Assembly: GCA_009746045.1 (NCBI GenBank)
Contig: RPFO01000114.1
Coordinates: 694,080 to 758,079, forward strand
Reading direction: 5' to 3'
From: Mesostigma viride
Taxonomy: Eukaryota > Streptophyta > Mesostigmatophyceae > Mesostigmatales > Mesostigmataceae
DNA length: 64,000 bases
Program-made: the position numbers and the translations under genes
The notes under the pieces: model-generated
The model's input: the letters and a program-made list of their open reading frames with translations, nothing else
What the model was told of the DNA's origin: nothing
Databases searched by the model: none
In this document: piece by piece, positions 26,371-64,000 of the stretch
How positions within the stretch are numbered: position 1 is the first letter of the stretch
Layout of the letters: every line of letters starts with the position of its first letter

Positions 26371-26700
26371 ATAGATTAGACCGGTAGGAATGTTTGCACC
26401 CATCCATCCATCCATCGGGGTTAATGCTCCGTGACTCCCCAACGGGAGCACGAGTCTAATTAATTAATTAATTAATCCCATTCCCATTCTACTGAGGACT
26501 TCTGCTCACGTGCCGCAGTCACGTGTAAATTAATTAATTAAAAAGTTAATTATAAAAGTAATTAATTAACGGCTGGTTGTCTTGGGCAGGCACGGCCGAT
26601 GCAGCGGCCGACGCTTTTCCTCCGGTCGTACTAACTAGCGATTTCCCATTAATTAATTATAATTAATTAATTAATTAATAAATTAATAGCGATATAACCC
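26371..26700 (+). mobile_element. 3' stub of ORF1-type retroelement with stem-loop and TTAA tail
   Basis: GACCGGTAGGAATGTTTGCA and CATCCATCCATCGGGGTTAA precede a stem-loop at 26431-26451 (GTGACTCCC, loop CAAC, GGGAGCAC), then CGAGTCTAATTAATTAATT. The same unit occurs at about 60604-60690 and inverted at 63380-63560. More TTAATTAA-rich sequence continues to 26690. Confidence 0.65.
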
Positions 26701-43605: not shown

Positions 43606-43659
43606 GAGCCTAGTTGTGGGATGTGTTCCTGGTCCAAATATAAAGGGGCACGGGAATTA

Positions 43660-43905
43660 GCGATAGCATAGGGGGCTCGGGAATAACGTTAGCAGAGGGG
43701 CACGGGCACTAACGTTAGTGAAGGGGCACGGGCACTAACGTTAGCAGAGGGGGCTGGGCACTAACGTTAGTAAAGGGGCACGGGCACTAACGTTAGCAGA
43801 GGGGGCTGGGCACTACCGTTAGTAAAGGGGCACGGGCACTAACGATAGCAGAGGGGGCTGGGCACTAACGTTAGTAAAGGGGCACGGGCACTAACGTAAA
43901 GTCTT
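43660..43905 (+). repeat. CTAACGTTAG palindrome array, left arm
   Basis: About nine copies of the 10-bp palindrome CTAACGTTAG (with AACGATAG variants) are spaced by 26 bp, alternating GTGAAGGGGCACGGGCA-like and GCAGAGGGGGCTGGGCA-like spacers. The longer inverted partner lies at 49398-50130. Confidence 0.9.
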
Positions 43906-46280: not shown

Positions 46281-48170
46281 CTTAATTAATTAATTAATTA
46301 ATTATCAACATCACTCCGTTGGGAGTGGATGTAGCACATAGCCCTGAGAAGGGGCATATGGCTTTTAATACATTCTAGGCTACTTCATGCAAGGGTGGGA
46401 ATGTAAGCTACCCCTGCTCTAGGTGCACCAGGGCACCCGCACCCTCATGGTCTATCACGCTATGCCCGGGTAAGGGGGCCGGAGCATGCCTGTGAGGGGG
46501 AAGATCATCATGGCTATACAAAAACTAGAGCGTGGCATCTCAGCAGAGAGCAGCTCTCTGCATGGGCACAGCATTACTAAATAAAACTAGGCATCGTCTG
46601 GAGTGTGGCTCATCATAGGCACACATGTACATGATTAAATAAAGCGCGTGGCTTAGCTGGAATAGGGCCTCTAGGAGGCGTACATGTACATGGCCACGGT
46701 CTATCTATTCTACACTACTACTGCTGTATTCCCCTAAGCTGGGGCGTCTGGAGTCGCTGGGGCCGCGGGGGTCGCCTGCCAGGGCTTGTGGCCGACGTAG
46801 ATGGCCGCCCCCTTCCAGTACACCGGCTGCCCCGCCTTGGTCTGCCGGAGCTGGAGGTAGGTCGGCCATAGCTCCCGTCGCCGTTGTTGCTGCGCCAGGG
46901 TCAAGTCGTCATCAAGGGTGAAGAGAGTCTTCTCGAGCCGCTTGCGGCGTCTGAGAAAAGAAATCTTGTCCGCCGGGGTCTTAAAGGTGAGAAGGAGCGG
47001 GGGCGGCCCTGCCTTACCCCGCGCGCGGGGAAGGCGGTGGGCGGCCAGCTCGATCTCACCAGTAAGGCCCATGCGATCAAGGATTTCTCTCTCAAAAGCA
47101 CGCGCAAGCTTCTCGGAATTCTCACCTTCCTCCATCTTGAGATTCTTGACAATGACGTTGAGGCTGCGCTTGGCGAGCTCGGCCTCCTCGCGGAGGTCAA
47201 GCGTCTGCCGTTGAAGCTGGGCTGCGACGGCGGAGGTGGTGGAGGTGGTGTGTTGCTTAAGCATGTCCGCCCAGGTGGTGATGGGAGGAGCATCGCCGGC
47301 CAGGCCAGCCGGGGCTGGCTTGGCGGCAATGTCCTTCACCGCCTGGGCGGTGAGGCCTGCGGTGTTCTGCAGAACCTCGATAGCGATGGCGTTGTCCTTA
47401 AGACGCTGGTCGATGTCGCGGAGCTGGGCGGTGATGGAGTCGGAGGGGGGGGGGGGGTGGAGGCGAGGAGGGTGGCGGTGGCGGTGGCGGTGGCGGTGGG
47501 GATTTTGGGGAGCTCAGCAGCCATCTTACGACCCAAAACTTCCATGTCGCAAGCAAGGGGCGTCACATGCTGTGAGAGGAGGCGGAGGAGGGCGAATTCG
47601 GTCAAGGGGACGGGTTGCCAGACGTCCGCGGAACAGCGTTGAAGGATGGAAAAGAGGGCGGCAAGCTGAAGGCGCGGTCGCGACCAGCCAGACAGGTCAG
47701 CTGAGCGGAGCTGAAACTGGCCGTCAGACTGGCTGCGGAAGCATTTGTGGCGTTGGAGGCGTTGGCACAGGTCAAGAAGGGAGGCATACGACCCATAAAA
47801 CAGGAGCTCCAGCATCCGGATGTGTGGCCTGTCGAAATAGCCAGGTCTGCGGACGTCGAAGCCTCGAAGGTGGAAAATAACTCATCGACGTCAAAGTCGG
47901 TCTCAGACCAGCTAGGTTCGGTGGGGCGGCTGCGTTTGGGCTCGGGCGAGGCTGAAGGCGAGGCAGGAAGCCCGGGAGGGTGCTGGACGACCACCAGTGC
48001 GCGACTAGTGTCACCACTGCCTTCCGGCCCTGATGGCGAAGCTGCAGCCGGAGCTGCAGACGTATTTTCATTGCCTAACGCATTCGCCAGGCTGCGTTGC
48101 GTTGTTGTGCGTTTGCTCGTCATAATAGCAGTTCGCGTAATAGCTGCAGGCGGGTCACAATACTGCATTA
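46281..48170 (-). mobile_element. ORF1-type non-LTR retroelement without RT (copy 1)
   Basis: On the minus strand an ORF1 region (48124 to 46734) is followed directly by about 410 bp of 3' UTR, a stem-loop at 46312-46327 (CACTCC, loop CAAC, GGAGTG) and a TTAATTAA tail at 46281-46305. No reverse transcriptase lies between ORF1 and the tail. A second copy at 54770-56233 has the same order. This resembles mammalian HAL1 elements, which keep only L1 ORF1, but that comparison is an inference. Confidence 0.65.
46734..48124 (-). pseudogene. LINE ORF1p-like RNA-binding protein, frameshifted
   Basis: The C-terminal 202 codons (46734-47339) include SLNVIVKNLKMEEGENSEKL, AHRLPRARGKAGPPPLLLTF and RRRKRLEKTLFTLDDDLTLA, then RRRELWPTYLQLRQTKAGQP and IYVGHKPW. 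This is the RRM plus C-terminal-domain pattern of L1 ORF1p, an RNA chaperone that coats its own transcript. The upstream part (RMLELLFYGSYASLLDLCQR and onward) lies in a second frame, broken by a G/C run near 47445, and the N-terminus (MTSKRTTTQRSLANALGNEN) lies in a third, so the copy is decayed. A coiled-coil-like stretch (LQRQTLDLREEAELAKR) precedes the RRM. Confidence 0.7.
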
Positions 48171-48400
48171 CAGCTGTAACCGTTTATAGTAGCAGATGCG
48201 CCTAGAAAAGATGCATCGGTTGCAAGTGATCTGACGGAATTTGGGGCTCAGACGCGAAAGTTCTGAGCTCCGCCGTCAGCCATGGCTACCTCGTGGCTCG
48301 TGGCTCCGGGCATGCACACATGTACATACAGTTAGTACTTACTTAGTTAAAATAGTTAGTCAGTTAGTTAGCTAGTGAGCTAGTTAGAACTTGATAGGTA
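48171..48400. other. Spacer within foldback loop
   Basis: No gene is seen. There are short AGTTAGT-like repeats at 48330-48385. Confidence 0.3.
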
Positions 48401-48419
48401 GGTCAGGTAGGTAGGTAAT

Positions 48420-48790
48420 TAATTAATTAATTAATTAGACTCGTGCTCCCGTTGGGGAGTCACGGAGCCCGAACTGCCTTTCATCCCTTTGTTTGCACAA
48501 CAGGAAGGAAGGTCAGAGACCCCCTTTCTCCTTCATGCTAGAGGCATGCCACAGCTGCGTGACTCCCAAACGGGAGCACGAGTCTAATTAATTAATTAAT
48601 TAATTAATTAATTAATTAATTAATTAATTAATTAATTAATGCCACAGCTGCAATCGGACACGCTAAACGATCCTGCAAGATCTGTGGGTGCAATGAGACC
48701 CATGTGAGCTTATCATAACAAGGAGCGTGGGCAAGTAATGTGAGCATAGCCAAGACGTAGCATCATTGGATGTACAAGGAAATATTTAAT
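48420..48790 (-). mobile_element. ORF1-type retroelement 3' end, nested tails
   Basis: A stem-loop at 48443-48463 beside a TTAATTAA tail (48418-48437) is followed by 3' UTR matching 63540-63780. The UTR is interrupted at 48559-48640 by a second, oppositely oriented stem-loop (48559-48579) and a long (TTAA)n tail, so a later stub appears to have inserted into the older one. Confidence 0.6.
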
Positions 48791-48849
48791 AGCTCTATCT
48801 TGATGTGCGTGTAGGAATAACTGCATGGAGGAATAACGGCGAACATGTG

Positions 48850-49012
48850 AAGGAACAAGTATCCCACAACCAGGAACGTGCATCCCACAAGCAGGAACGA
48901 GTATCCCACAAGCAGGAACGTGTTTCCCACCACCAGGAACAAGTATCCCACAACCAGGAACGACTATCCCACAACTAGGAACGTGTATCCCACAACCAGG
49001 AACAAGTATCCT
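48850..49012. repeat. Small third block of the 21-bp satellite
   Basis: About eight units of the ATCCCACAACCAGGAACGTG type lie in the orientation of the right arm but outside the main right array. Just before it is CTGCATGGAGGAATAACGGC, resembling the TIR sequence near 41496. Confidence 0.85.
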
Positions 49013-49395
49013 CTGCCGGCAGTGCCACCCCATGCAAGACCCCACAAGCCGTCCTTGCATAAAGGGGACATGCAGTCATCACAAGGAGTGGTAACTGCCG
49101 GCAGTGCCACCCCATGCAAGAACACACAAGCCGGGGACATGCAGTCATCACAAGGAGTGGTGACTGCCGGCAGTGCCACGCCATGCAAGACCCCACAAGC
49201 CGTCCTTGCGTCAAGGGGACATGCAGTCATCACAAGGAGTGGTAACTGCCGGCAGTGCCACCCCATGCAAGAACACACAAGCCGGGGACATGCAGTCATC
49301 ACAAGGAGTGGTAACTGCCGGCAGTGCTACCCCATGCCAGAACCCACAAGCCATCCATGCAATCATCACAGGGAGTGGTAACTGCCGGCAGTGCG
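49013..49395. repeat. Long-unit tandem repeat (GGGGACATGCAGTCATCACA)
   Basis: Units of about 60-75 bp contain AGTGGTAACTGCCGGCAGTG, repeated about five times with internal deletions. GCCGGC-centred short palindromes occur in each unit. Confidence 0.85.
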
Positions 49396-49397
49396 TG

Positions 49398-50130
49398 GCC
49401 CTAACGTTAATTCCCACAACCCCTCTGCTAACGTTAGTGCCCAGCCCCCTCTGCTAACGTTAGTGCCCCCCCCTCCTTTGCTAACATTAGTTCCCACACC
49501 CCTCTGCTAACGTTAGTGCCCGTGCCCCTTTACTAACGTTAGTGCCCATCCCCCTCTGCTAACGTTAGTGCCCGTGCCCCTCTACTAACGTTAGTGCCCA
49601 GCCCCCTCTGCTAACGTTAGTGCCCCCCCTCCTTTGCTAACATTAGTTCCCACACCCCTCTGCTAACGTAAGTGCCCTCCCCCCCCTGATATCGTTAATG
49701 CCCACCCCCCTTCACTAACTTTATTCCCACACCCCCTCTGTTAACGTTAGTGCCCGCGCCCCTTTACTAACGTTAGTGCTCGTGCCCCTCTGCTAACGTT
49801 AGTGCCTGTGCCCCTTTACTAACGTTAGTGCCCAGCCCCCTCTGCTAACGTTAGTGCCCGTGCCCCTTTACTAACGTTAGTGCCCGTGCCCCTCTGCTAA
49901 CGTTAGTGCCCGTGCCCCTTTACTAACGTTAGTGCCCAGCCCCCTCTGCTAACGTTAGTGCCCGTGCCCCTTTACTAACGATAGTGCCCAGCCCCCTCTG
50001 CTAACGTTAGTGCCCGTGCCCCTTTACTAACGTTAGTGCCCAGCCCCCTCTGCTAACGTTAGTGCCCGTGCCCCTTCACTAACGTTAGTGCCCGTGCCCC
50101 TCTGCTAACGTTATTCCCGAGCCCCCTCTG
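49398..50130 (-). repeat. CTAACGTTAG palindrome array, right arm
   Basis: Roughly 30 copies of CTAACGTTAG or close variants with a period near 26 bp; inverted partner of 43660-43905 but about three times as long. Confidence 0.9.
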
Positions 50131-50179
50131 CTATCGCTAATTCCCGTGCCCCTTTATATTTGGACCAGGAACACATCCC

Positions 50180-51075
50180 ACAACTAGGCTCGACTATCCC
50201 ACAACTAGGAACGTGCATCCCACAACCAGGAACGTGTATCCTACAACCAGGAACGTGTATCCCACAACCAGGAACGTGTATCCCACAACCAGGAACGTGT
50301 TTCCCACAACCAGGAACGTGTATCCCACAACCAGGAACGTGTTTCCCACAACCAGGAACGTGTATCCCACAACCAGGAACGTGTTTCCCACAACCAGGAA
50401 CGTGTATCCCACAACCAGGAACGTGTTTCCCACAACCAGGTCCGTGTTTCCCACAACCAGGAACGTGTTTCCCACAACCAGGAACACATCCCACAACCAG
50501 GAACAAGTATCCTACAACCAGGAACGTGTTTCCCACAACCAGGAACGTGTTTCCCACAACCAGGAACGTGTACCTACAACCAGGAACGTGTTTCCCACAA
50601 CCAGGAACGTGTATCCCACAACCAGGAACGTGTTTCCCACAACCAGGAACGTGTTTCCCACAACCAGGAACGTGTATCCCACAACCAGGAACGTGTTTCC
50701 CACAACCAGGAACGTGTATCCTACAACCAGGAACGTGTTTCCCACAACCAGGAACAAGTATCCTACAACCAGGAACGTGTTTCCCACAACCAGGAACGTG
50801 TATCCTACAACTAGGAACGTGTTTCCCACCACCAGGAACAAGTATCCCACAACCAGGAACGTGTTTCCCACAACCAGCAACACAAGGAACGTGCATCCCA
50901 CAACCAGGAACACATCCCACAACCAGGAACAAGTATCCTACAACCAGGAACACATCCCACAACCAGGAACGTGCATCCCACAACCAGGAACGTGCATCCC
51001 ACAACCAGGAACAAGTATCCCACAACAAGGAACACATCCCACAACCAGGAACGTGTATCCCACAACCAGTCGCGC
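50180..51075 (-). repeat. 21-bp satellite, right arm
   Basis: About 42 units form the reverse complement of the left-arm array. The outer part is collinear with the left arm unit by unit; the inner part differs in unit number. Confidence 0.95.
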
Positions 51076-51794
51076 AGTCGGTCTGAATGACTGGCATTAT
51101 AACGAGCGTCATATTCGTCTCCGGCTTGGCAGTGCCGTCATCCTGCATACAAAAAGAACATTGGAGCCAGCACTTTCCCGCGGGTTGTAGCCGATATTCC
51201 TCCATGCAGCGATATTCACCAATGCGCTATCAATAAACAAGTCGACACCATCCGGTATGTAAAAAAAGCACGCTGCTGGCCACGACGGTCACGGCGATGA
51301 TGAACGACAATAACAAGAACGCCTAATAGCAGGCGTCATACAAACTAGAACAGACTGGAACAACTACTTACCCGGTCGTCTGTGATCTTGACGCAGAGCC
51401 TGGTTTACAAGGAAGCGAGGGAAACCGGCCACTATGAGCACCCCTACTTAACCCACATAATGAAGGTTAGGAATCCTCCCCATCATGCTAACCGTAGACT
51501 CGGTGAAACGCCCCATGCTACAAATACGATAGCCCAGCAACGACTACTTGCGGCCATCACCTTGTCCAGTTCTGGCTGGCTGTGCGGCGGTAATTTTACC
51601 AAGTTTAAAAATGTTACGTCGCACCAGTCTGTGCTTTTTTACGTAGTACCAGTGTAGTGTAGAAATCTGCCAAAAGAGCAAACGCCCAAAGCCAACTTCC
51701 AAGACGCCCAAAGCCAAATTCCAAGACGCCCAAAGCCCAAAGGCGGGCGAGTCTGGCGCGGCGCCGGCCATTGGGCCCCGGAATAAGAAATACC
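51068..51794 (-). repeat. Right terminal inverted repeat, unique part
   Basis: Reverse complement of 40897-41633, ending in …GAATAAGAAATACC. It lacks the 12-bp insertion of the left copy. Confidence 0.85.
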
Positions 51795-51804
51795 GCCCAG
51801 GAGT
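51795..51804 (+). repeat. Target-site duplication, right copy (GCCCAGGAGT)
   Basis: Identical, in direct orientation, to 40887-40896 at the other end of the element. Confidence 0.8.
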
Positions 51805-52276
51805 GCAACGTGCGATTGCCGTGAAAGGTTCTGCGAACTAGTGAAGGGACCACTAATTCCATAGGAGAAAAAGGCAAGATCCTTATTTGAATGCGCGCCG
51901 GTACATCCAGATATTCCTACAGTATCTGGATCACGTGCCATTCTGACGACGGCGCAGTTCAATCGCTGACTTCTAACTGCCGCAAAAAACCATGACAAGA
52001 AGTCGGCAACGTGCCTTCGCAACGGCGGTGGTGTGTAATGGCATCACTGCCAAGACGGCTAGTATTTTGCATGGAAAATTAAGGTGCTAAACGCCATTTA
52101 ACCTGTTGAAAAGCTGTTTTCCAGTACGGACACGTTGCATTGACGTTGCGAGGCGTTGAAGCGTCAAAGCATTTACTGGGAGACAGCAGTCATTGACGCA
52201 CGGATGCTTCAGGAAGGCACACTCGAGTAGCGAGGCAATTGCAGAGCCCCTTGCTAAGTCCAGCAAAAAGGCGGAG
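51805..52276 (+). promoter_or_regulatory. Presumed promoter and leader of the methyltransferase gene
   Basis: Unique sequence between the foldback element and the likely start codon. No clear TATA box is seen. An in-frame ATG at 52193 would add 28 residues before the targeting-like peptide. Confidence 0.35.
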
Positions 52277-54136
52277 ATGAATTCACTTCTACTGCCTATT
52301 AGACGCAGTTGCCTACTTATTCGTTGCATTTCCACCGGTCCATCGAGAAGCAGAAATGCCGGGGTGAACCCCCGACGCAGTGAACCCCGACGGGATGGTC
52401 CCCGGCGCGATGAGTTCCGAGGGGAAGAGCCCCGCCGGAGAGAATTGGGACGGGAGGGACCCCGGCGGGGTGAGTTTCGAAGAGACGAACCTCGACGTGA
52501 GGAGCCTCGCAGGGAGGACTCTCGACGGGGCGGGATCCAACGGGACGACTTTCGATGGGACGAGCCCCCGCGGGATGATTTCCGACGAGGGGAGATCCGT
52601 CGGGACGAACCCCGGGGGGAAGATTTCCGGCGGAATGACTTCCGACGGGATGATTTCCGGCGAGAGGAGCCCCGGCGGGAGGAGTTTCGGCGGGACGAAG
52701 CCCCGCTAGAGGAGCCCCGCCGGGGAGACCGCCGTCGGGATGAGCCCCGCAGGGATGACCGCCGGCGGGAGGAATCCCGTCGGGATGAGCCCCGCCGTGA
52801 AGATGCCCGGCGTAGCGAGCCGACTCGGCGCGTGTCCAAGTCGCTATCTCCCAGCCACGAGGCCACGGGCAGCCCCTCTACCCCCACGGCCGTCCTCAAG
52901 GAAGGCAAGGCCAGCATCTTCTCGGCGGAGGCACCCCTGGTCTTCTCTGGTGCCGTCCAGCGCGTGACAGGGTCCCCTGGCGTGGGCGACTCGGTCATCC
53001 TTGCCAACGACATGCTGCAGCCGCTGGGGTGGGGCGTGTTCAACCCGCACTCGATGTACCAGGTGCGCATGATGCAGTACCGCGACATGGGCGCGGGCGA
53101 GCCGTTTGCGCCGAGTATGGACCAATCAGAGCACGTGAGGTGGCGGCTGGCACAGTGCCTCGCGCGGCGCGCGGCGCTCGGCCTGCCCAGCGGGGAGACG
53201 AATGCGTTCCGGCTCGCCAGCAGCGAGGGGGACGCGCTCTCCGGTCTCGTTATCGACTCCTACAACGACCACCTGGTCATCTCGGTGACCGCTGCGTGGG
53301 CGCAGCTCCAAAAGGATGCCGTCATCCGTCACGCGTTTGACCTGACCGGCGCCCGGGGCATCATCTGGAGGCCCTCCTCGGCCATGCTCCGCAAGGAAGG
53401 GGTCGAGGTCAAGTCGGACGCGACCTACCACACCAGGGACCAGCCAGGGGGCGTTGAAGAGAGCGCCAGCTCATCGGTCCCCCCCGTGCTCATCCGCGAG
53501 AACGGGATGCTCTTCGAGGTCAACCTTCTCAGCCAGAAGACCGGGTTCTACTGCGACCAGCGCGACAACAGAGACCTGATCCGCACGCTGGCCAGGGGGA
53601 AGTCGGTCCTCGACCTGTGCTGCTTCAGCGGCGGGTTTGCGGTCGCAGCGGCGCTGGGGGGGGCCACCTGCGTGACAGGTGTCGACAGTTCGTCGGCCGC
53701 GATCGCCGCTGCCGGCCGCAACGCGGACCTGAACGGCGTGGGGCCCCTGTGCACCTTTGTTGAGGCGGATGTCGATGAGTGGATGGCGGGGCAGCTGGAC
53801 GACCCAAACAGCCCGCGGTACGACATCATCGTCCTTGACCCGCCCAAGCTGGCGCCGACGAGCAAGGACTTGCGTCGCGCACTCCAGAAGTACCGCCGGC
53901 TGAACGCGCTGGCCATGGGGCTGATTCAGCCCGCAGGGGGGCTGCTGCTCACGTGCTCGTGCTCCGGCGCTGTCACTCAATCGGACAGCTTCCCTTATAT
54001 GCTCGTCGAGGCGGCCCAGGCGGCGCGGCGGAGCGCGGTGCAGCTGCAGGTGATGGGCGCCGCAGGGTGCCACTTGCAGCATCTGACGTTTGCCGAGGGC
54101 AACTATCTGATCGCCAGCCTGCTGCATGTCTCCTGA
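52277..54136 (+). CDS. RlmI-like SAM-dependent rRNA (cytosine-C5) methyltransferase, organelle-targeted
   Basis: An intronless frame of 619 residues from Met 52277. That start gives MNSLLLPIRRSCLLIRCIST, a basic, hydrophobic presequence typical of mitochondria or chloroplasts; 52193 is an alternative. Residues about 30-185 are an Arg/Asp/Glu-rich repeat (RRDEPRR, RREEPRR). A PUA-like domain follows (VFSGAVQRVTG, then LGWGVFNPHSMYQVRMM). The class I methyltransferase core has GFYCDQRDNR, motif I VLDLCCFSGGFAVAAALGGA, motif IV IIVLDPPKLAP and motif VI TCSCSG with its catalytic-type Cys. This arrangement is that of RlmI/YccW, which methylates a large-subunit rRNA cytosine in bacteria. The substrate here is inferred to be organelle rRNA. 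The Arg-rich repeat is absent from bacterial relatives. Confidence 0.9.
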   Translation: MNSLLLPIRRSCLLIRCISTGPSRSRNAGVNPRRSEPRRDGPRRDEFRGEEPRRRELGREGPRRGEFRRDEPRREEPRREDSRRGGIQRDDFRWDEPPRDDFRRGEIRRDEPRGEDFRRNDFRRDDFRREEPRREEFRRDEAPLEEPRRGDRRRDEPRRDDRRREESRRDEPRREDARRSEPTRRVSKSLSPSHEATGSPSTPTAVLKEGKASIFSAEAPLVFSGAVQRVTGSPGVGDSVILANDMLQPLGWGVFNPHSMYQVRMMQYRDMGAGEPFAPSMDQSEHVRWRLAQCLARRAALGLPSGETNAFRLASSEGDALSGLVIDSYNDHLVISVTAAWAQLQKDAVIRHAFDLTGARGIIWRPSSAMLRKEGVEVKSDATYHTRDQPGGVEESASSSVPPVLIRENGMLFEVNLLSQKTGFYCDQRDNRDLIRTLARGKSVLDLCCFSGGFAVAAALGGATCVTGVDSSSAAIAAAGRNADLNGVGPLCTFVEADVDEWMAGQLDDPNSPRYDIIVLDPPKLAPTSKDLRRALQKYRRLNALAMGLIQPAGGLLLTCSCSGAVTQSDSFPYMLVEAAQAARRSAVQLQVMGAAGCHLQHLTFAEGNYLIASLLHVS

Positions 54137-54758
54137 GGGAGGGGGTCTGTTTTCTGAGGTGGTCCATTGCGGCCTCCTTCTCGAACAAGGGAATGGCTAG
54201 TCTTGAGTGCGCTGGTGGAGTGGATAGCCTTGAGTGGCATGGTTTGATGGAAAAGAAGCCCAAGCGTGGAGTGACCCCAGACTTGCGAAAACATAAAGCG
54301 CCTTCAGCAGCGAAAGCATATAGTGACCCTTTGGGGAGTAAAAATGTTTAGTATGGCAGCGCACTAGTTTTTTTAAGTACCTCATGAGCCATGAATATCC
54401 CCCCCCCCATACCAACTGGGGTCATGCTGCTGCGGTTCGTTTCCTTTACTAGCATAAGCATCTCAACGATCTCGTCAACTCTCAAGTGCTTTCGCTCGCT
54501 AGTGGAGGGCCTCTGATGGACGCCGATTACCATTTCGAAAACATACACAGTACATCAGGGAGCTTGTGGAGCCACAGCTTGTCAGCATTTTGTTGCCACA
54601 ATGCTTCTGTCGATTACCACTACACTTCTAGTCTCCTCACATGGAACCTTGGGCGAGGCTAGCACATGATTGTCAGGAATTTTAAAAAATATCCCAATGG
54701 AGTTGTGCCTGTGTGCTCCCAAATTTGAATGTTCTGTGGCATTAAATTAAATTATAAC
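54137..54758. other. 3' flank of the methyltransferase gene, no gene seen
   Basis: There is no coding signal. The sequence becomes AT-rich toward the retroelement tail at about 54740. Confidence 0.4.
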
Positions 54759-55144
54759 ATGACTCCGTGGGGAGATAATTAATTAATAAATTAGGAACAT
54801 AACTGCGTTGGGAGTATATGTAGCACATATCCCAGAGAAGGGGCACTGATATGGCTTTTAATACATTCTAAGCTACTTCCTGCAAGGGTGGGAATGTAAA
54901 CGACACTTGCTCGGGGTGCACCAGGGCCCACCTGCATCTAGATCAAGCTATCAAAGAGACAACCAGCGCAGGCCAGAAATCGGGAGAATCCGGACCATGG
55001 TAGCTCGAGCCTGCCGTTATCTTTTCCGCGTTTTCGAGTCGTTCAGGATGATGAAGATGAATGGTGATGGAAATGTGTATCAGATCAAGCTATGCCCAGC
55101 TAAGGGGGAGCCTGTCATGGGGGGGAAGATCATCCTGGCTATAC

Positions 55145-55258
55145 AAGAGAGGTCCCCAGTTCGATTCCGGCCTGGATTCATTTGCAGATCGCGTTTTCCG
55201 CGGACCGGCACTGAACGCAAATGGTTTTTCACCTTTGCGGCGTGCCAAATCAGAAACT
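55145..55258 (+). mobile_element. SINE copy 4, 5'-truncated
   Basis: This starts at the B-box region (GAGGTCCCCAGTTCGATTCC) and runs to GCGGCGTGCCAAATCAGAAA, matching the 3' two-thirds of the other SINE copies. Confidence 0.5.
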
Positions 55259-55483
55259 CAGAATACAAGAGCTAGGGCATGGCTTCTCAACAGAGAGCAT
55301 CTCTCTGCATAGGCATATCATGGCTAAATTCTTAATGCAACATCCATGGGGGTCCCATTATAGGCCTGCATGGCTTGGCTAAATTCTGAAGGCATCATCC
55401 ATGGCCCGGGCCATTATGGGCGCACATGCGCGAGGGCCACATGCAAGGCTAAGCCTGACTAATCTACACTACTGGTATATATT

Positions 55484-55817
55484 ATAATAATATAATTACT
55501 TACAGCAGAGTGAAATCACTCAAACCAAAGCAAACGCCCAGCTATAAACCTCTATACAGAGCCATGCCAAATCTCTATACTACGATAAGACCAATGGAAA
55601 CTCCTAACGGGAGGAACCTAATAGCCCTGCTGCACCGCAAAATCAGCCCGCGTACGGCGGAGCATGATGTCAGCCATGGCCCGAGTCAGCGCCACCGACA
55701 AGCGCTGACGCCAATATGACGTCCAGGTCCGCGCCGACCATGAGGCCCGCTGGCCCTCCAGGTCCAGCCGGTCCTCCCGGAGCCGGCAACACTCCTTGAA
55801 GAAGGCGGAGGTCAGGG
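55484..55817 (-). mobile_element. 334-bp insertion with 15-bp target-site duplication
   Basis: CTACTGGTATATATT occurs at 55469-55483 and again at 55818-55832, flanking a segment absent from ORF1 element copy 1. The segment is GC-rich with one open minus frame (including FFKECCRLREDRLDLEGQRA) and ends in an AT tail on the minus strand. The TSD size and tail suggest target-primed retrotransposition. Confidence 0.6.
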
Positions 55818-56239
55818 CTACTGGTATATATTCCCTAGTCTGAGGTGGCAGGAGGTGCCTGCCAGGGCTTGTGGTCAACATGGATGACCGCCCCCCTCCA
55901 GTATACCGGCTTCCCCCCTGCGCTCTGCCGGAGCTGAAGGTACGTAGGTCGGCCATAGCTCGCGTCGCCGCTGTTGCGCTGGGCCAGGATCAAGTCGTCG
56001 TCCAGCGTGAAGTGAGTCCCCGAGAGCTTCTTGAGGCCTTTCAGGAACGACATGCAGCTTGTCCGCCATGTACTTAAAGCGGGTGAGGAGCACGGGTGCC
56101 GGGCCAGCCTTACCCCGCGCGCGGGGGAGGAGGACAGCCGACATCCGCAGCTCACCATGGTGAGTTGCATGGGGGCAAGAATGTCGCGCTTAAATGCCGT
56201 GAGAAGAGTCTTCCAGGTCTCACCGGTCGCCATGCTTTG

Positions 56240-57360
56240 AATGCTCTTCTCCCCGAAGCCAATGCATTATGGGTGGAGGTGCTGTCGAATGCCGGGTATG
56301 AATGCGCTGCCGGTAGTTGGATCATCACAGACTCAGCCCAAGTACGCCTACGCCTTGCCGCCCTTAGCCGTTCTAAGACAGCAGCAGAGAAGAGTATACC
56401 TATGCATGCCCATAGCCACCTATGGAGGCGCGGGCGGTGGGGTTGGAGATTAGTGTCAAAACTGAGGCGATGGTGATTGGGGCCTCCAGTACACCACCGC
56501 TGCCGCGCCTGCTCGACGGGACGGAGGTCCCGTTCCGCGACCGCTTCAAGCTGTTGGGGAGTTGGCTTCCTGACACTGCCGACGATGTGGACACCCGCAT
56601 CGGCCTTGCCTGGGCCAAGCTCCGTTCGCTCAAACCCTACTGGCACTCGAAGGGCCTGGACGACCACCGCAAGCGCATGCTCTTCAAGGTCCTCGATTGT
56701 CCTCACGGTGCTCACGTATGGAGCCGAGGCGTGGACCAGCCCACCCAAACTGGCAGCTAGGCTAGACGGCACGGTTTACAGGATGCTTCGACAGGTCCTT
56801 AACGTAGGTTTTTCCGAGCGTCCGTCATCAGAATCTTTGTACCATGGCATGCCTCGTATTTCGGACGAGATTAGGCACCGTAGGATAGCATTTGTAGGAC
56901 ACCTTGCTCGCACCAGCTAGGTCGACACCGCATTTGGCCTGGCCGGCCCCCAGCGGCTTGGCCAGCCAGGGCGGCACATTCTGACCTGGCCTGGCCCTAA
57001 GGACATTCCTAAGAAGGTAGGGAAACATGTCATGAACTACACCCAGATGTTGCTGGATGACCTAGTGGTCCCAGCCCAGTTTGAGCACCGCATCCACTCT
57101 CTCTCCCGTCTTTGGACTGCCATGCAGGACAAGACGCGGTGGCAGAAGATTGTCAAGGCGCACACGCCCGACCCTGTGGGCAAGCCACCTCCCCCCAAGC
57201 GGCGGCTCAGGCGTTTTGATGAGTAGTGTAGTTAGGATTTTCTAGATAGCTATAGAGTTAGGATAGTTCGATCCCGCGGCTTCCTCCACCCGCCATCCCA
57301 ATCATGGAATATGTGCTACATGACCTCCCCACGGAGGCATGTTATAATTTAATTTAATTT
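56240..57360 (+). mobile_element. LINE fragment: RT C-terminal part, 3' UTR, stem-loop, (TTTAA)n tail
   Basis: A decayed reverse transcriptase C-terminus (see 56422-57226) is followed by a short 3' UTR, a stem-loop at 57319-57341 (CATGACCTCC / GGAGGCATG) and TTATAATTTAATTTAATTTA. This copy ties the stem-loop directly to an RT-bearing element. Confidence 0.75.
56422..57226 (+). pseudogene. LINE reverse transcriptase, thumb and C-terminal domain
   Basis: The frame includes VGLEISVKTEAMVIG (the GL-x-x-x-x-K-T-E block after the catalytic YADD), FKLLGSWLPDTADDVDTRIG, WAKLRSLKPYWHSKG and, in other frames, TYGAEAWT, VYRMLRQVLNVGFSERP and GMPRISDEIRHRRIAFVGHL. These are conserved C-terminal features of non-LTR reverse transcriptases. 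Two frameshifts and a stop after GHLARTS show decay. The YADD box itself is not in this fragment. Confidence 0.75.
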
Positions 57361-57464
57361 AATTTAATAGCCACCTATGATTTCACCACTCTGTATACCA
57401 GACTAGATTTGCACGATTTGAAAGCTCATTTGGATAGCCTCCTTACTCGTCTGTATTCTGGTTT
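57227..57464 (+). other. LINE 3' UTR and tail; short spacer
   Basis: Contains the stem-loop at 57319-57341 and the TTTAA tail to about 57369. The remainder up to 57464 is unremarkable. Confidence 0.5.
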
Positions 57465-57660
57465 GGCACGCCGCAAAGGTGAAAACCATTTGCGTTCAGT
57501 GCCGGTCCGCGGAAAACGCGGAAAAACGCGATCTGCAAATGAATCCAGGCCGGAATCGAACTGGGGACCTCTCGCACCAATTTTGCTGACTATAGGACGG
57601 ACGTCTCCGGATCCTAGGGCATCGCCAACTGACACCTACAGTCATCCGCAAAAGTTCTCC
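57465..57660 (-). mobile_element. tRNA-derived SINE candidate, copy 3
   Basis: Nearly identical to the copy at 27315-27505, with the same 5' start (GGAGAACTTTTGCGGATGAC) and the same 3' end near GGCACGCCGCAAAGG on the plus strand. The B-box string is intact. Confidence 0.6.
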
Positions 57661-57779
57661 TTTCCGGGGAGTGATGCAGATAGGGAAAACACACATACAC
57701 ACACCACCACTACCAAACACAAACAACCAAAACTACTTAGAAGGAAAAGCATGGGCACGGTATTAACATATTAATTCAT

Positions 57780-57935
57780 GAAACTCGTGCTCCCGTTGGG
57801 GAGTCACGGAGTGTTAACCCCACGTCATGCTGTGCATGGGCACGGCGTGACATGGGCACGGCATGACTAAATAATGCTAGGCATCATCTGGTGTAGGCAC
57901 ACATGTACATGACTAAATAATGCCAATTCATGAGC
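57780..57935 (-). mobile_element. Retroelement stem-loop stub (57786-57806)
   Basis: The stem-loop GTGCTCCC...GGGGAGTCAC is next to an ATTAATTCATGAAACTC tail on its left. Its right side shares GGCATCATCTGG and CACACATGTACATGACTAAA with the ORF1 element 3' UTR near 46590. Confidence 0.5.
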
Positions 57936-57939
57936 TGGT

Positions 57940-58560
57940 ATTCAAAAAAATAAAATAAAATTATAACATGACTCCGTTGGGAGATCATGTAGCACATATT
58001 CCTTGCCGTAGTAGATGGAGGGAGGTGGGCGAAGCCGCGGAATCGAACTAAGCTAAATCCGTCTTAGCTATCTAGTCTAGAAAGTCCTAACTATGCTAGT
58101 CAGCAAAGCGCCCCGGCCTTTAGCTTGGGGGGAGGGGGCCGCTTGCCCACAGGGGCTGGCGTGTGAGCCTGGACAATCTTCTGCCACAGGTCTCTTCTTG
58201 TTCTGCATAGCAGTCCGAGCAATTAAGAGAGAGGGAGTGAATGCAGTGTTCAAACTGAGCTGGGACCACTAGGTCGGCCAGCAACATCTGTATGTACTGG
58301 TTCATGGCAGGTAAACCCAGCTTTCTAGGAATGTGCTTGGGGCCAGGCCAGGTCAGGATGTGCCGCCCTGGTTGGCCAAGCTGCTGGGCCGGGCCGGCCA
58401 GACCAAGGGCGCGGTATCGGCTGACTGGTGCGAGCAAGATGTCCTACAAACGCTATCCTATGCTGCCTAATCTCGTCCGAAATGCGAGGCATACCCTGAT
58501 ACAATGACTCTAATGACCTATGCGTGGAAAACCCTACATTCAGGACCTGTCGAGGCATCC
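57940..58560 (-). mobile_element. LINE 3' end, minus copy (RT C-terminus, stem-loop, tail)
   Basis: The tail TAAAATAAAATTATAA and a stem-loop at 57967-57989 (CATGACTCC / GGAGATCATG) precede, on the minus strand, the RT C-terminus with QVLNVGFSTHRSLESLYQGM and GMPRISDEIRQHRIAFVGHL. It is homologous to 56760-57341. Frameshifts are present. Confidence 0.7.
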
Positions 58561-58599
58561 TGTAAACCGTGCCGTCTAGCTTGACGGCCAGTCCCCTTC

Positions 58600-59268
58600 C
58601 CTGAGGAAATGCAGCGGCTCCTCTCTCGTCGCAAGAGGTTGCATGACCTCACCTGGATGCTGGGGCGACGACCTGATATCGACCCCCGCTCAGCAGCAGC
58701 AGCGACGCGACCTGTGGCCTGAATACCTCCGGCACAATCAGGACCCCCAGAAGCCCAATGTCAAGGAGACAACCAGCCCAATGTGTACTTGAGGGGCGGG
58801 GACCTCATGATCAACCACAAAATGTGGTTCCCCCCTGCGGGCTAGAATAGCTAGCCCTAGCTTGAACCATTGGTAGTCACTGCCGCCATGGCAGCCATGC
58901 CTAGAATGTTTGCCTAGCCGAGCCACCATACCTAGCTAGTCACGTGCCCAGCAAACGCACGGCACACAACCAGCCATAGCCTTAGTTTAGCTTTTGTACA
59001 TGCAACCATGCTACGTCCTGGCTATGATCAGGTTACTTGCCCACGCTCATCGTTACGATATGCTCACATGGGTCTTATTGCACCCACAGAACTTGCCGGA
59101 TTGTATATCGTGTCCGATTGCTACTGTGGCATGCCTCTGGCATGAATTGGAGAAAGGGGGTCTCTGCCCTTTCTTCCTGTTGTGCACATGCAGGGATTAA
59201 AAGCACTCCGATGCTCCGTGACTCCCCATGCAACGGGGGCACGAGTTTAATAAAATTCATTAATTAAT
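58600..59268 (+). mobile_element. ORF1-type retroelement (second family), 3' half
   Basis: An ORF1 C-terminus (58600-58845) reads RRKRLHDLTWML and RRDLWPEYLRHNQD, then in a shifted frame NVYLRGGDLMINHKMWF with a stop at 58843. This parallels RRRELWPTYLQLRQ and VYWKG...HKPW of the other ORF1 family. It is followed directly by about 370 bp of 3' UTR, a stem-loop (59217-59241, with a 4-base loop insertion) and an ATTAATTAATT tail. Again no RT lies between ORF1 and the tail. Confidence 0.65.
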
Positions 59269-60551
59269 TGGCGGTCAGTGTGTCCGTGAGCGTCCATGCC
59301 TCGGCGCCATACGTGAGCACCGTGAGAAAACACCAGGGCCTTGAAGAGCATTCGCTTGCGGTGCTCGCCCAGGCCCTTCGAGTGCCAGTAGGTTTTCAGC
59401 GAACGAAGCCTAGCCCAGGCCAGGCCGATGCGGATGTCCACACCGTCGGCGGTGTCGGCCGGGGAGCATGCTCCCCAGCAGTTTGAAGGGATCACGGAAC
59501 GGGAGGTCCGTCCCGTCCAGCAGCCGCGGCAGCGGCTGGCAACTGGTAGCCCCAACCACCGGCATCGCCTCAGTTTTGACACTGATCTCCAACCCCACCA
59601 CCCGCGCCTCAAAGCCCAGACAGTCTAGCCAGGTCCAGGAATGTGCTCGGGGCGCCGCTCGATGAGGGTGGTCATCATCCGCATAAATCAGGTCGGACAG
59701 GCGGCCTAACCAGGGCCACAGCCGCCATGTTCGCGCGCGTTAAGGATGTCCAGGTCGGGCTCGAACCCCTTCAGAGCAGTAAAGCGCGCACGTGCCCGGC
59801 GCATGACGCCGTCATCAGTGATCCATGACAGTATAATGAGCAGATATGGTTGTCTCCTTAATTGAGATATGGGCACAGGACACAGCCTTGCCACACCCCG
59901 TGGTCAAGGGGGAATGGTGGGGTGGTGCCTTCCGCAGTCCCGGCACTACTGCCTGTGATCGAGCCCTCATACAGTCGACGAATGGCAGCAATTAACGCTG
60001 GTGGTACCCGATCCAGAGCTAGGATGGCCCAAAGAGCCTCCCAGAGGGCCGTGTCAAAGGCCTCACTTGATATAGTCAACAAGAATGAAGACCAGCGGCA
60101 AACCGTCAGGGCAAAGGCGACGCACCTCCTCCATCAACCGGCACGCGACAAATACAGCCATAACAGTGTTAAGACCACGACGGAGACCCAGCTGAGACTC
60201 ACCCAGGTGTGGGTCCAGCGCGGCACGAAGCCTGTGCAGCATCATGCGCATGAAGACCTTCAGCGCGGCGCTCTGGAGGCAGACACCCTGATAGTTACCG
60301 GGGTCAGCAGCAGAGCCCTTCTTGTACAGCATGACTCGGATGGCCGTCTGCCACTCAGCAGGCAGAGGCGCATCAGAGAGCAGGACACGGTTGCAGAACG
60401 CCAGCAGAAGCTCCCGCACCGCCGGGTCAGGGGTCTTCAGCAGCTCAGCAGATAAGCTGGTTGGCACCGACCGCCGCGTCGAACCGCAGGCGAGCAAGGG
60501 CGCCGTCCAATTCCTCCGAAGTGAAGGGGTGGACGACGTCGTTGGTGGCAA
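59269..60551 (-). pseudogene. LINE reverse transcriptase (fingers, palm, YADD, thumb), frameshifted
   Basis: On the minus strand: fingers and palm at 60551-60063 (PAEWQTAIRVMLYKKGSAAD, NYQGVCLQSAALKVFMRMML and FILVDYIKAFDT-like); then FDTALWEALWAILALDRVPP and GVWQGCVLCPYLN (60082-59858); then the catalytic LIYADDDH with YADD at 59674-59685; then VGLEISVKTEAM and a thumb region to 59269. Non-LTR RTs copy their RNA at a nicked target. Frameshifts between blocks and missing ends mark a dead copy. Its 3' end abuts the tail of the neighbouring ORF1 element. Confidence 0.8.
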
Positions 60552-60569
60552 GGCAGCCCAGTGATGTTG

Positions 60570-60690
60570 TTTAGATAGATGTAGATAGATGTAGATAGAT
60601 TAGACCGGTAGGACTGTTTACACCCACCCATCCATCCATCGGGGTTAATGCTCCGTGACTCCCCAACGGGAGAACGAGTCTAATTAAGGG
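60570..60690 (+). mobile_element. Retroelement 3' stub with stem-loop (60655-60675)
   Basis: GTAGATAGATTAGACCGGTA through CATCCATCCATCGGGGTTAA and the stem-loop (GTGACTCCC, GGGAGAAC) match 26371-26460. The TAATTAA tail is short. Confidence 0.6.
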
Positions 60691-61133
60691 GAGGTGGCAC
60701 CCCAAAACCCAAAAAATCTGACATATGCTAATATCACTTGAAATTCATTTGCACAATGCTGAATTATGATTGGGGGCACTAAATAACATCTCTAGTGAGT
60801 TGTCCATGCACTTGTTGGGGGTACTACCCCCATATATACGCCAATAATGCGCTATAAATAGCAAAAGACGCTAATTAGGGCTGAGTATGCCCCAGCCAAT
60901 GCACTTATTTGTTGGCTACCAAAAATCAAGGTCATATAGTTCCCTGAGTTTGTAGCTTGCTGAGCTATTTACATCATGGAAATGGCAAAACCTTGAACAG
61001 TTATTAATTTTCCCGCAAAACAGGTCATTTTTTACCGGACATTGGGAATATACATATCATAAACACTTCCGATAAGGCCACAAAATCAACAAAAATTCCG
61101 GCTAACAGGGGGACAGCAGTGTTCCAAGTCCCA
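60691..61133. other. AT-rich region, no gene seen
   Basis: No coding or repeat signal is recognised. Confidence 0.35.
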
Positions 61134-61540
61134 GGTCATTCCGACAAGTCTAGCTCAAGTTATTGCGTCAGACGTGTTTTAAAAAAATGCCCGCTAAAAC
61201 AGAAAATGTCACTATATCAGCCCTTGTAAGCATCCTGCACAAGGCAGGCAGGGCAAAACCAATCCCCCTTGGGCTCCTTAGTCAACGGGGGGTCAGCGCA
61301 GCACCCATGCAGTCCTCCCTTGCACCCGAATGTGCTGCACAGCAGGAAAGGGACACCGTCAATTTCATCCGGGGAAGCACATGCAAGGCAAGGAATATTA
61401 TCAACATCATTCTCATCATCACTACTACCTTCCCCATCGTCCCCCTGCCCCTCCCTTTGCATCACGTCGTGGCAGCCACCCTTAACACAGGTCATTCCGA
61501 CAAGTCTTGCTCAAGTAATAAGGTTATGCGTGCTAAAACC
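61134..61540 (+). repeat. Direct repeat pair flanking the PHD exon
   Basis: GGTCATTCCGACAAGTCT followed by A/T-GCTCAAGT occurs at about 61134-61163 and again at about 61492-61520, on either side of the PHD-finger exon. A TGCCCGCTAAAAC / GCGTGCTAAAACC match follows each. Confidence 0.6.
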
Positions 61541-62872
61541 TGAACATAAGCTTAAGGGGGGGTTTCTTTGTATATGGCCACTTAGGCATGCTGTTTTCCA
61601 TCCAAAAAGCCAGAAAGCATGCCCCACTCGATCACAAAACATAAGCAAACGGCTAGGCACCACATCTTCCCTCACCTGCCCTCGGCATGGCCAACCTTGC
61701 CAGCGCAAGCATAGCAACACGATCGCTAGGCATACATGCCAAGAGAGCATACACTATACTCTACCCAAGGTTACCTTGTAAACTTCATGCCAAGAACTCA
61801 GCAAATCTATGATCAAAAGCACATATAATTAACTCTAGCACACTGATGACGACACATGCTCAAGGTTGGGGGTCACTGTGGCACGCACTGATGGGTTTCC
61901 TAGACGACCACTCACTACCTGACAAGGCGCTAAGGACCACTCAGAAAGCAAGTAAACACAATCACACTTTACATGCCATCAACATGGATCAAATCCATGC
62001 TGAATATGTTGTGAAGTACAAAGGGGTGGCCACGCACCTCATACTCCTTCACCGTCCCTCGAGCATGGCCAGACTTATAAGTACGTGAATAGCAATAATG
62101 ATGATGGCACTAACATGCATTACCAGCATTTTCTATGTTTCTCCCAGGTTAGATTGTAAGGGTTATGCCAACCAAGCTTACCAACACAGCAACAACTCCT
62201 TAACTGCACTACCCGACATGGGCAACAAACTGGAACTATGGAGGGCAAGGAACCAAGGAGATCATGGCATACAAAGCTTGTATGCAGTCAACCATGTCAA
62301 CCATGGTTGGCTCAGCAACATTGCTGTCTTGTCACATCATCATAACAAGGAAAGCTCAAATAAACCAATGATGGCAGCTATCTACATGCAGTCACACAAA
62401 TGCAATATCTCCAACATGATCGTCGATTTAAAAAATTCCTTCCCTGCACGATAAAATGCAAAGAAACCAGTGGCGGCCGTTCAGCTTCTGACCGCTGTGA
62501 TGCCGCTGCGAGGAAAGGGTGCGTCACTATCACACAACAAGAAGCGTCCATACGCACAACATCCTTGCCAGAACACGTGCTATGAAATCCCTTACGCCTT
62601 CCCTAGGATCTATCGGCTGAGACTGAAGCGGATTTGATCAAGACATCAACGAAAACAAGCTAAAGCTGCCAGGTATTCGTCAACACGACGGCAGCAACGG
62701 AGAGTTAACTGGCGGAAACTGACCAAAACGAACGCAAAAAACTTCGAACGATGAGCTCTTCGAAGAAAGAACTGATAGTAGATAACAGTCGCCACAAATC
62801 TATACCTTGCCCTCGTAGATCCCTCGCCCAGGCGCGCAACAACGGCCGTTCTTCCATGGAAGGTTCCGACAT
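61217..62872 (-). CDS. PHD-finger protein gene, small exons (partial model)
   Basis: The start ATG at 62872 gives MSEPSMEERPLLRAWARDLR in exon 62872-62806 (CAAG|GTATAG, phase 1). Next come 62505-62468 (TCGCAG|CG, phase 1 to 0) and 62073-62038 (ATAAG|TCT to GAG|GTGCGT, phase 0), then a PHD exon ending at the stop at 61217. The PHD finger is complete: CLAC-x13-C-x4-C-x4-HGCC-x14-C-PA-C, with WFCPAC at its end and an acidic SSDDENDVDN stretch before it. PHD fingers usually read histone H3 tails. The exact acceptor of the PHD exon (phase 0, near 61475) and any exons between 61500 and 62030 are uncertain. A transposon-encoded PHD protein is an alternative. Confidence 0.5.
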
Positions 62873-63330
62873 GCACTGCGCAGGCCTGAAAAAATACTTA
62901 CAGAGAATGGCCGAAAATGTAGCAAAAAGCACCCGTTCGGTTTAGAATTCGATGCTACCGATATGAATGCATCCTTCACGGTCAAAAAGACCCCCAAAAC
63001 TGAGAATTTACTGCCGCAATCACGAATTCTATTTTATTCCGCGCGACCAAAAAATGCAGATTACCCCCCATGCCGATGGCAGTAAAAGAAAGCAGCGATA
63101 TTGTAAACCAGCCACTTGCCGCCGCAATCCAACATCATTAAATCATCGTCTTCAACATCCAATCATTTTTTTTGCATTTCTCTAGCCCTACATTGCTAGT
63201 TTCGCCTAAACGCAGTCGCCATGGCCACTTCCGCAAGTGGTGCGCGCACGGAGCACCCACTTTTCACGGTACGGCCGGTGCCGCGAATTTTTTCGCGCGG
63301 AAAATATTCGGCGCGCCACGTCCCCTTAAT
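62873..63330. other. Upstream region of the PHD gene, no other feature
   Basis: Probably promoter and leader for the minus-strand PHD gene. No TATA box is recognised. The sequence becomes GC-rich at 63220-63320 with CGCGCGG and GGCGCGCC. Confidence 0.35.
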
Positions 63331-64000
63331 TAATTAATTAATTAAGGCAGCCCTCCTTCAATTAATTAATGAATTAATTAGACTCGTGCTCCCGTTGGGG
63401 AGTCACGGAGCATTAACCCCGATGGATGGATTAATTAATTAATTAGACTCGTGCTCCCGTTGGGGAGTCACGGAGCATCAACCCCGATGGATCCATGGAT
63501 GGATGGATGGATGGATGGATTAATTAATTAATTAATTAAACTCGTGCTCCCGTTGGGGAGTCACGGAGCACTGAAGTGCTTTTAATCCCTGGGTGTGCAC
63601 TACAAGAGAAAGGGCAGAGACCCCCAGTCTCCTTCATGCCAAAGGCATGCCACAGCTGCAATCGGGCGCGGCTAGCTAAAAGGACAGGCTAACGATCCGG
63701 CAAACTGTGGGTGCAATAAGACCCATGTAAGCGGGGCATAACAAGTATAGCGTGGGCAAGTAATCTGACCATAGCACGGGCGTAGCATGGCTGTGCTAGG
63801 ACTAGGCTAAGGCTATGGCTGGTTGTGTACCGTGCGTTGGCGGCACGTGACTAGGTATGTTGGCACAGCTAGGCGAACATTCTATAGGCATGGCTGCCTT
63901 AGCGGCAGTGACTCCAATGGTTACAATTGCTAGGGCTATTGCTATTCTAGCCCGCTGGGGGCGTCCACATCTTGTGGTTGATCATGGATGGATGGATGGA
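63331..64000 (-). mobile_element. ORF1-type retroelement (second family), cut by right edge, with nested stubs
   Basis: Three stem-loops in the same orientation (63396-63416, 63451-63471, 63544-63564) each follow a TTAATTAA tail, showing repeated insertion into tails. From 63560 on, the minus strand gives the 3' UTR matching 58860-59215. At 63953-63992 it gives an ORF1 C-terminus, MINHKMW and PPAG with a stop. The rest of the element lies beyond the window. Confidence 0.65.

Follow-up and report, generated by a model that had tools for sequence, protein, structure and literature searches.

Retroelements that encode ORF1 without a reverse transcriptase probably parasitise stringent-type LINEs in Mesostigma viride and can exchange 3' ends

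The 64,000-nucleotide (nt) stretch of the Mesostigma viride genome analysed here (the window; GenBank assembly GCA_009746045.1, contig RPFO01000114.1, positions 694,080 to 758,079 of the forward strand) carries remnants of two kinds of non-long-terminal-repeat (non-LTR) retroelement: long interspersed nuclear elements (LINEs) with a reverse transcriptase (RT), and elements with an open reading frame 1 (ORF1) and no RT. Both kinds have a hairpin followed by an AT tail at the 3' end, and the ORF1-only elements can be sorted into at least three families, A1, A2 and B. An original prediction, made from the letters of the window, held that ORF1-only elements and short stubs parasitise an RT-bearing LINE through one shared 3' stem-loop; as observation and as interpretation it held up in part, since the ORF1-only elements were confirmed and the single hairpin and the parasitic stubs were not. 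Here, we present evidence which argues, at a probability of roughly 0.8, that RT-less ORF1-encoding elements parasitise stringent-type LINEs and can exchange their 3' ends.

The element at 46.3-48.3 kilobases (kb) is, as predicted, ORF1-only, with broken frames, and 56.4-57.36 kb holds an RT C-terminus, a hairpin and (TTTAA)n. Three other segments that the original prediction assigned to ORF1-only families hold only parts of ORF1: that at 54759-56233 is 5'-truncated to the ORF1 C-terminus and adjoins a minimal stub of RT-A type, that at 58600-59268 has a frameshifted C-terminus of about 66 amino acids (aa), and that at 63331-64000 retains just the last ~12 codons and the 3' untranslated region (UTR). 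The last two belong to a third ORF1 family and end in a second hairpin. A stem-loop is present at all 13 positions named in the prediction, degenerate at 27252 and 48559, and the one hairpin has to be replaced by two families: hairpin A, ACAT..CTCC-CNAC-GGAG..ATGT, and hairpin B, GTGACTCCC-CAAC-GGGAGCAC, each with RT-bearing and ORF1-only members. Searches of the source genome (440 megabases, 2243 contigs) with up to three mismatches allowed (<=3) matched 5536 type A ends of RT type, 1394 type A ends of ORF1 type and 8117 type B ends, far above chance, with 0 matches for each reversed-pattern control. This genome also has 33 matches to the chlorophyll a/b-binding family PF00504, 20 scoring over 80 bits (best E 3.2e-47), whereas among 14 control genomes just one, a cyanobacterium, gave a match; the original prediction's attribution to an alga is thus well supported.

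The anatomy of the ORF1-only elements was defined on family A1. A genome search with window positions 46300-48170 gave 40 scored copies, and 30 loci (L009-L038; loci are numbered with an L) were examined, from which 23 independent near-full-length copies were kept; L010 and L011, whose flanks are as in the window copy, and L029 and L031-L034, which are 5'-truncated (L033 repeating L032), were left out of this set. The 23 copies are 1.94-2.0 kb long, homology among them stops sharply at both ends, and their flanks differ. They share a (CACGAGC)n GAGGTAGCCATGG start, a 5'UTR, ORF1, a 3'UTR of ~400 nt and the hairpin, then an AT tail that is (TTAA)n in almost every copy. Direct repeats of at least 9 nt surround 20 of the 23 copies, versus 14 of 506 controls in which the 5' and 3' flanks of different copies were paired. 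Copies lie at many positions inside contigs and, as in target-primed reverse transcription, have a constant 3' end and variable 5' truncation. Five of the 23 have an intact ORF1 (457-471 aa, proper start), so that these elements, unlike short interspersed nuclear elements (SINEs), code for protein; L016 has a sixth unbroken ORF1 whose start is in a shifted frame. A filler of 7-45 nt, sometimes with local repeats, separates the repeat from the mapped 5' end in the 20 direct-repeat copies and in a few copies (e.g. L018) consists partly of extra CACGAGC units. L010 and L011 repeat the window element including its flanks, as segmental duplications that lie on contigs C1767 and C1106; L032 duplicates L033 in the same way.

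That no RT belongs to these elements was examined from both directions. Among 61 ORF1 C-termini in the loci examined, counted without the window duplicates L001, L009 and L039, none is followed first by an RT or an endonuclease (EN), and the absence of RT from the element itself, on which the original prediction depended, therefore held. The element's own sense hairpin comes next in 43 of the 61 (40 of 58 once the segmental duplicates L010, L011 and L033 are removed). The remaining 18 meet the antisense hairpin of another insertion (6), a chance-like CTCC/GGAG core (3) or the end of the locus (4), or have neither hairpin nor RT within 1300 nt (5, one with only 693 nt left); the window B copy is among these five, its hairpin being too degenerate for the search pattern. 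Read upstream from the hairpin, the 116 family ends fall into three classes. Of 37 GTTATAA-type ends, 32 have RT as the nearest upstream coding match (mostly 89-151 nt off), 1 has the ORF1 of a neighbour and 4 have none. The 58 ORF1-type ends, with GTTGATAA, GTTCCTAA or similar, have ORF1 within 1100 nt upstream in 40, mostly at about 400-450 nt, a few of these being a second hairpin behind one ORF1; the others have RT (2, neighbours), ORF1 further off (5) or nothing (11). The 21 type B ends follow a family B ORF1 (5), another ORF1 match (1), RT (4, one a neighbour) or nothing (11).

Similarity between RT-bearing and ORF1-only elements is confined to the 3' end in four of four pairs compared, so that the ORF1-only elements are, as predicted, many-copy, RT-less and alike to LINEs at that end only. 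In the two pairs of RT-B with ORF1-B the alignment starts 2 nt ahead of the hairpin and reaches the end or stops just short of it, the two sequences being almost identical there; RT-A aligns with ORF1-A1 or A2, with gaps, from about 25 nt before the hairpin. Over the 70 nt upstream the four pairs score 8-10 versus shuffle maxima of 11-13, whereas RT-A and RT-B are alike upstream as well (15 versus 13).

Covariation was examined in the type A stem, which has one bulged base. Among 18 distinct sequences the stem has two variable pairs, both changed on both sides; 14 cells with two-sided change were observed versus 5.3 expected, and the covariation score of 0.192 exceeds that of shuffles, which do not preserve relatedness (0.052, standard deviation 0.020; 0 of 500 as high), and of slid pairings (0.002-0.027). 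On these two informative pairs the 3' stem-loop is kept by compensatory change, as in stringent LINEs, and the original prediction's proposal that the stem covaries was upheld there. For five ends the folding energies have z-scores between -3.0 and -3.8. The loop is CAAC in all 21 type B ends.

The LINE that shares hairpin A, RT-A (window 56440-57345), has 40 scored genome copies, which are 93-95% identical with the window copy excepted, and an RVT_1 domain in Pfam (E 1.4e-23); its 10 matches to solved RTs are R2 or R2-like proteins and LINE-1 ORF2p, which do not settle the LINE clade. Its 5' part was traced through overlaps between separate copies, L040 with L069 (RT, linker and part of EN), L070 (EN) and L071 (an ORF1 followed by the start of ORF2), which were read one by one and never joined, the RT of the L071 copy itself not being read. 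The EN region has no Pfam match, and we take it to be EN from its position and motifs. DNA running from ORF1 into the start of ORF2 is covered over at least 1836 of 1841 query bases, at 88-100% identity, by 29 of the 40 scored copies. This ORF1 differs from that of the ORF1-only elements: the only DNA matches of L071 to the other loci searched are 43-45 bases long and lie at its extreme 5' edge, ahead of the ORF, and a profile comparison aligns 97 columns of the proteins with 32% identity (probability 89.5, E 2e-6), suggesting that they are only remotely related. ORF1-only elements are therefore not recent deletions of RT-A. RT-B is seen as short C-terminal pieces that precede hairpin B in L044, L046, L060 and L063; they are 30-106 aa long and 41-60% like RT-A, with some weaker pieces besides.

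Two other arrangements were considered and set aside. A bipartite LINE, with RT and ORF1 always on separate elements, was dropped for RT-A after its own ORF1 turned up. L070, with pieces of an ORF1 element before EN, was discarded as a true LINE structure because L070 alone among the 40 scored copies crosses the junction, the others ending between query bases 451 and 489; the best reading of L070 is that a truncated LINE landed in an ORF1 element. LINE and ORF1 fragments are also nested or adjoining, with little between them, in L040, L042, L062 and L066, which suggests insertion into or next to each other.

The ORF1-only protein has no Pfam match, and a sequence search of the PDB gave nothing useful. 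In an AlphaFold model the C-terminal part runs from a helix through an RRM to a C-terminal domain, and in a Foldseek search of the PDB the best 12 of 961 matches were human LINE-1 ORF1p (best E 1.1e-5, probability 1.00), with template-modelling (TM) scores by target of 0.33-0.40 for multi-domain ORF1p structures and 0.62-0.63 for the single RRM (2w7a). On this low-confidence model, the protein resembles an L1-type ORF1p with a helical region, an RRM and a C-terminal domain. The divergent ORF1 appears to be kept under constraint, the ratio of nonsynonymous to synonymous substitution rates (dN/dS) being 0.32-0.43 for A1 versus A2 and 0.41-0.70 for A versus B; among close A2 copies it is 0.29-1.36, as expected among dead copies.

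Family B has also exchanged its 3' end. Its ORF1 precedes hairpin B in L037, L049, L051, L054 and L061, and with the window copy six ORF1-B copies have a B-type 3' end. The upstream element of L035 and L066 carry instead the family B ORF1 end and the first ~200 nt of its 3'UTR (90-94% to L037/L061, 87-90% to L051); at a short motif of similar sequence they change over to a 3'UTR of A2 type that carries hairpin A (85-89% to the A2 copy of L066). The B-to-A junction occurs 128 times in the genome and that of parent B 2018 times (reversed-pattern controls 0 for both), counts that may be low because both patterns were built from a few copies; the chimera therefore multiplied after its formation. 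The swap is probably a change of LINE partner, and the occurrence of family B with hairpin B and, after the swap, with hairpin A is new here. The stubs were rejected as a separate class, those with enough flank matching RT-B or ORF1-B 3' ends; the assignable ones (26427, 60655, 63389, 63454), once thought to parasitise the LINE, carry the RT-B 3' flank and look like truncated copies.

Table 1. Retroelement features of the window, in order of position
Feature	Position	Strand	Comment
RT-B-type 3' stub, type B hairpin and (TTAA)n	26427..26475	+	
RT-A type hairpin stub, CAAC loop	30649..30680	+	
A1 (TTAA)n tail	46281..46301	-	direct repeat of the insertion next, about 46266-46280
ORF1-only element A1	46302..48306	-	(CACGAGC)n 5' start near 48306; ORF1 46737-48117, frames broken; ~400-nt 3'UTR; hairpin
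A1 type A hairpin, ACATC-C-ACTCC-CAAC-GGAGT-GATGT	46308..46332	-	
Minimal stub, part of hairpin and (TTTAA)n	54741..54776	-	RT-A-type copy truncated inside the stem
ORF1-only element A2, 5'-truncated	54790..56233	-	ORF1 C-terminus 55847-56233; long 3'UTR; mutated hairpin 54797-54821
RT-A LINE, 5'-truncated	56422..57317	+	C-terminal part of RT ORF; short 3'UTR
RT-A type A hairpin, ACATGA-CCTCC-CCAC-GGAGG-CATGT, then TATAA(TTTAA)n	57318..57342	+	
Type A hairpin, CAAC loop, older RT-A relative	57966..57990	-	RT fragment at 58124-58621 (-)
ORF1-only element B	58615..59245	+	frameshifted ORF1 C-terminus; 3'UTR; degenerate type B hairpin near 59212-59245
RT fragment and upstream linker of RT-A-like LINE, decayed	59307..60633	-	
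RT-B-type 3' stub, type B hairpin	60650..60687	+	
Two RT-B-type 3' stubs	63382..63478	-	hairpins near 63382-63413 and 63447-63478
ORF1-only B 3' end	63540..64000	-	last ORF1 codons; 3'UTR; type B hairpin near 63540-63571; TTAA tail

Elsewhere in the window, an inverted duplication (40897-43897 and 49848-51794) comprises 1633 bp at 97% identity and diverged minisatellite arrays. An inverted repeat pair (55138-55262 and 57478-57590), one copy of which lies inside the A2 3'UTR, has a GGTTCGATTCC-like box that resembles a B-box, and is perhaps a tRNA-derived SINE. Frames at 66-2167 (-) with what we take to be a CCHC zinc knuckle and a retropepsin-like motif are presumably an LTR retrotransposon gag-pol fragment. 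An open frame at 52160-54136 (+) has PUA-like and S-adenosylmethionine (SAM) methyltransferase domains (Pfam PF10672, PF17785) and an N-terminal part that is a charged Arg/Asp/Glu repeat.

Several observations weigh against parasitism of the LINEs described here. The loci were chosen for similarity to window sequences. The number of stem pairs with two-sided change (2) is not above that of shuffles (463 of 500 as high), 5 of the 18 type A sequences break one of the two variable pairs, and the other stem columns were fixed by the search pattern and are uninformative. Within hairpin family A the loops are unlike, CCAC in 26 of 37 RT-type ends versus CAAC in 58 of 58 ORF1-type ends, and so are the tails, TTTAA in RT-A versus TTAA in the ORF1-only elements; A1 and A2 may thus use an older or unseen RT. 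Because RT-B is known solely from short C-terminal pieces in four loci, any ORF1 of its own lying beyond the stretch read, family B could have arisen from it by simple deletion. The protein model is weak (mean predicted local distance difference test score 47.6, with ten-residue blocks of 50-77 over residues 301-440), and its matches to the ORF1p trimer have low TM-scores, 0.33-0.36 by target. Values of dN/dS reach 0.70 between A and B and are 0.67-1.36 in some A2 pairs, and the unbroken ORF1 with its proper start survives in only the 5 of 23 copies mentioned. Finally, one or more mispaired flank controls match over up to 47 nt, so some A1 flanks are themselves related.

Ending in the same kind of folded tag without an enzyme of their own, the ORF1-only elements probably borrow the copying enzyme of a LINE. 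Anatomy, absence of RT, common 3' end, stem covariation, fold resemblance and chimera can be read from the sequences; from stringent LINEs in the literature we infer that the RT would recognise the hairpin, and trans-mobilisation by the LINE and a role for the ORF1 protein would follow the same model. An ORF1-only element would encode one L1-type ORF1 protein, probably RNA-binding and perhaps bound to its own transcript in cis. The transcript would end in a bulged stem-loop and a short AT repeat, mimicking the 3' end of an autonomous LINE, so that, we propose, the ORF2 protein of the LINE, with its endonuclease and RT, binds this end and integrates the element through target-primed reverse transcription, which would yield the AT-repeat tail, the direct repeats and 5'-truncated stubs. 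Two LINE lineages, each with its own hairpin (A or B), would serve at least three ORF1-only families. A template switch or recombination may once have joined the family B ORF1 to an A-type 3' end, the chimera then multiplying, which would fit a change of LINE partner.

Parts of this arrangement are familiar. HAL1 elements of mammals, which code for ORF1p alone and have several origins (PMC5753468), are likewise non-autonomous, with an L1-type ORF1p only and probable mobilisation by a LINE (PMC5753468, PMC4161310), and the elements here similarly have ORF1 and no RT (0 of 61). HAL1s, however, derive from L1, which in mammals belongs to the relaxed, poly(A) type (PMC4176376), whereas here the ORF1 is remote from that of RT-A, the common part is a covarying hairpin and one 3' end has been exchanged for that of the other hairpin type. 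Direct derivation from the mobilising LINE does not apply to RT-A, whose own ORF1 is different; RT-B has been read only C-terminally. HeT-A, of the HeT-A/TART system of Drosophila telomeres, is described as without enzymes for transposition, a Gag/ORF1-only non-LTR element thought to use the RT of another (PMC5537684); HeT-A forms arrays at chromosome ends, whereas the elements here lie within contigs, are flanked by direct repeats and carry a hairpin at the 3' end. In the stringent LINE/SINE pairs UnaL2 and ZfL2 a non-autonomous partner shares the 3' tail, whose stem-loop is recognised by the ORF2 protein (PMC4176376), and similarity is limited to the 3' end here as well (4 of 4 pairs), but the passenger is a protein-coding ORF1 element rather than a small non-coding SINE. 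L1-clade LINEs of green plants and of a green alga share 3' ends with SINEs: plant L1s have a putative 3' hairpin with compensatory changes common to SINEs, and Chlamydomonas L1-1_CR and SINEX-3_CR share ~80 nt (PMC3747384). The plant hairpin differs in having a UCU loop, the Chlamydomonas pair in its poly(A) end, and the sections of that account drawn on here describe no ORF1-only partner alongside (PMC3747384). Among the titles and abstracts listed in searches of an open-access library, none reported ORF1-only elements sharing or swapping a LINE 3' hairpin.

Three persisting ORF1 families with between-family dN/dS below 1 are hard to square with plain half-LINEs, that is, internal deletions or spliced copies of a two-ORF LINE in which ORF1 is a passive relic. 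We consider such an origin unlikely, although ORF1 and hairpin are both LINE-like, HAL1 is a derivative of this sort with several origins in mammals (PMC5753468), spliced L1 copies are known (PMC5860796) and ORF1 is broken or its start shifted in 18 of 23 copies. Family B could fit, with RT-B read as C-terminal pieces only; RT-A does not, its ORF1 being remote and its 3'UTR upstream of the hairpin unlike, and an A1, A2 or B ORF1 stands before RT in 0 of 61 cases. RT-A also bears on whether the two kinds of element form a cooperating split system, mutual partners as suggested for HeT-A/TART, in which ORF1-only elements provide an ORF1 protein needed by the LINEs. Constraint on ORF1 and the presence of ORF1-only and RT-bearing ends in both hairpin families would suit such cooperation, but RT-A carries its own ORF1, with 29 of 40 scored copies continuing into the start of ORF2, and is thus not obviously in need of a supplied protein, so that we regard cooperation as more doubtful still. 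That the hairpin serves to process or terminate RNA 3' ends across many transcripts, rather than as a recognition signal, would suit its place at the extreme 3' end and is highly improbable, since RT-style AT-repeat tails follow it, it lies inside direct repeats in 20 of 23 copies, the tail unit varies by family and some stubs are little beyond hairpin and tail.

Parasitism of stringent-type LINEs may have a wider consequence, which we put forward tentatively: an arms race in which a lasting guild of ORF1-only elements hijacks LINE enzymes through the 3' tag, changes host by acquiring a new 3' end and drives the LINEs to change theirs. The suggestion draws on family B elements with an A tag (128 junction copies) and on RT-A loops that are mostly CCAC versus CAAC in ORF1-class and type B ends. 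RT lies within 200 nt of 23 CCAC ends, 18 of them at least 88% like the reference RT, and of 6 CAAC ends, 2 of which reach 88%, numbers biased by the choice of LINE loci for their likeness to a CCAC copy. The split between CCAC and CAAC may reflect a LINE escaping its parasites, or another RT serving A1 and A2.

If parasitism of stringent-type LINEs is the correct reading, half-LINEs can form a stable, diversified guild outside animals, with a constrained ORF1 protein of their own, and the 3' tag of a LINE would be a module for host range that can be swapped. Given that a single genome offers several ORF1 families, both hairpins and natural chimeras, the choice of RNA in trans by LINE enzymes, and the contribution of ORF1 protein to it, would become directly testable.

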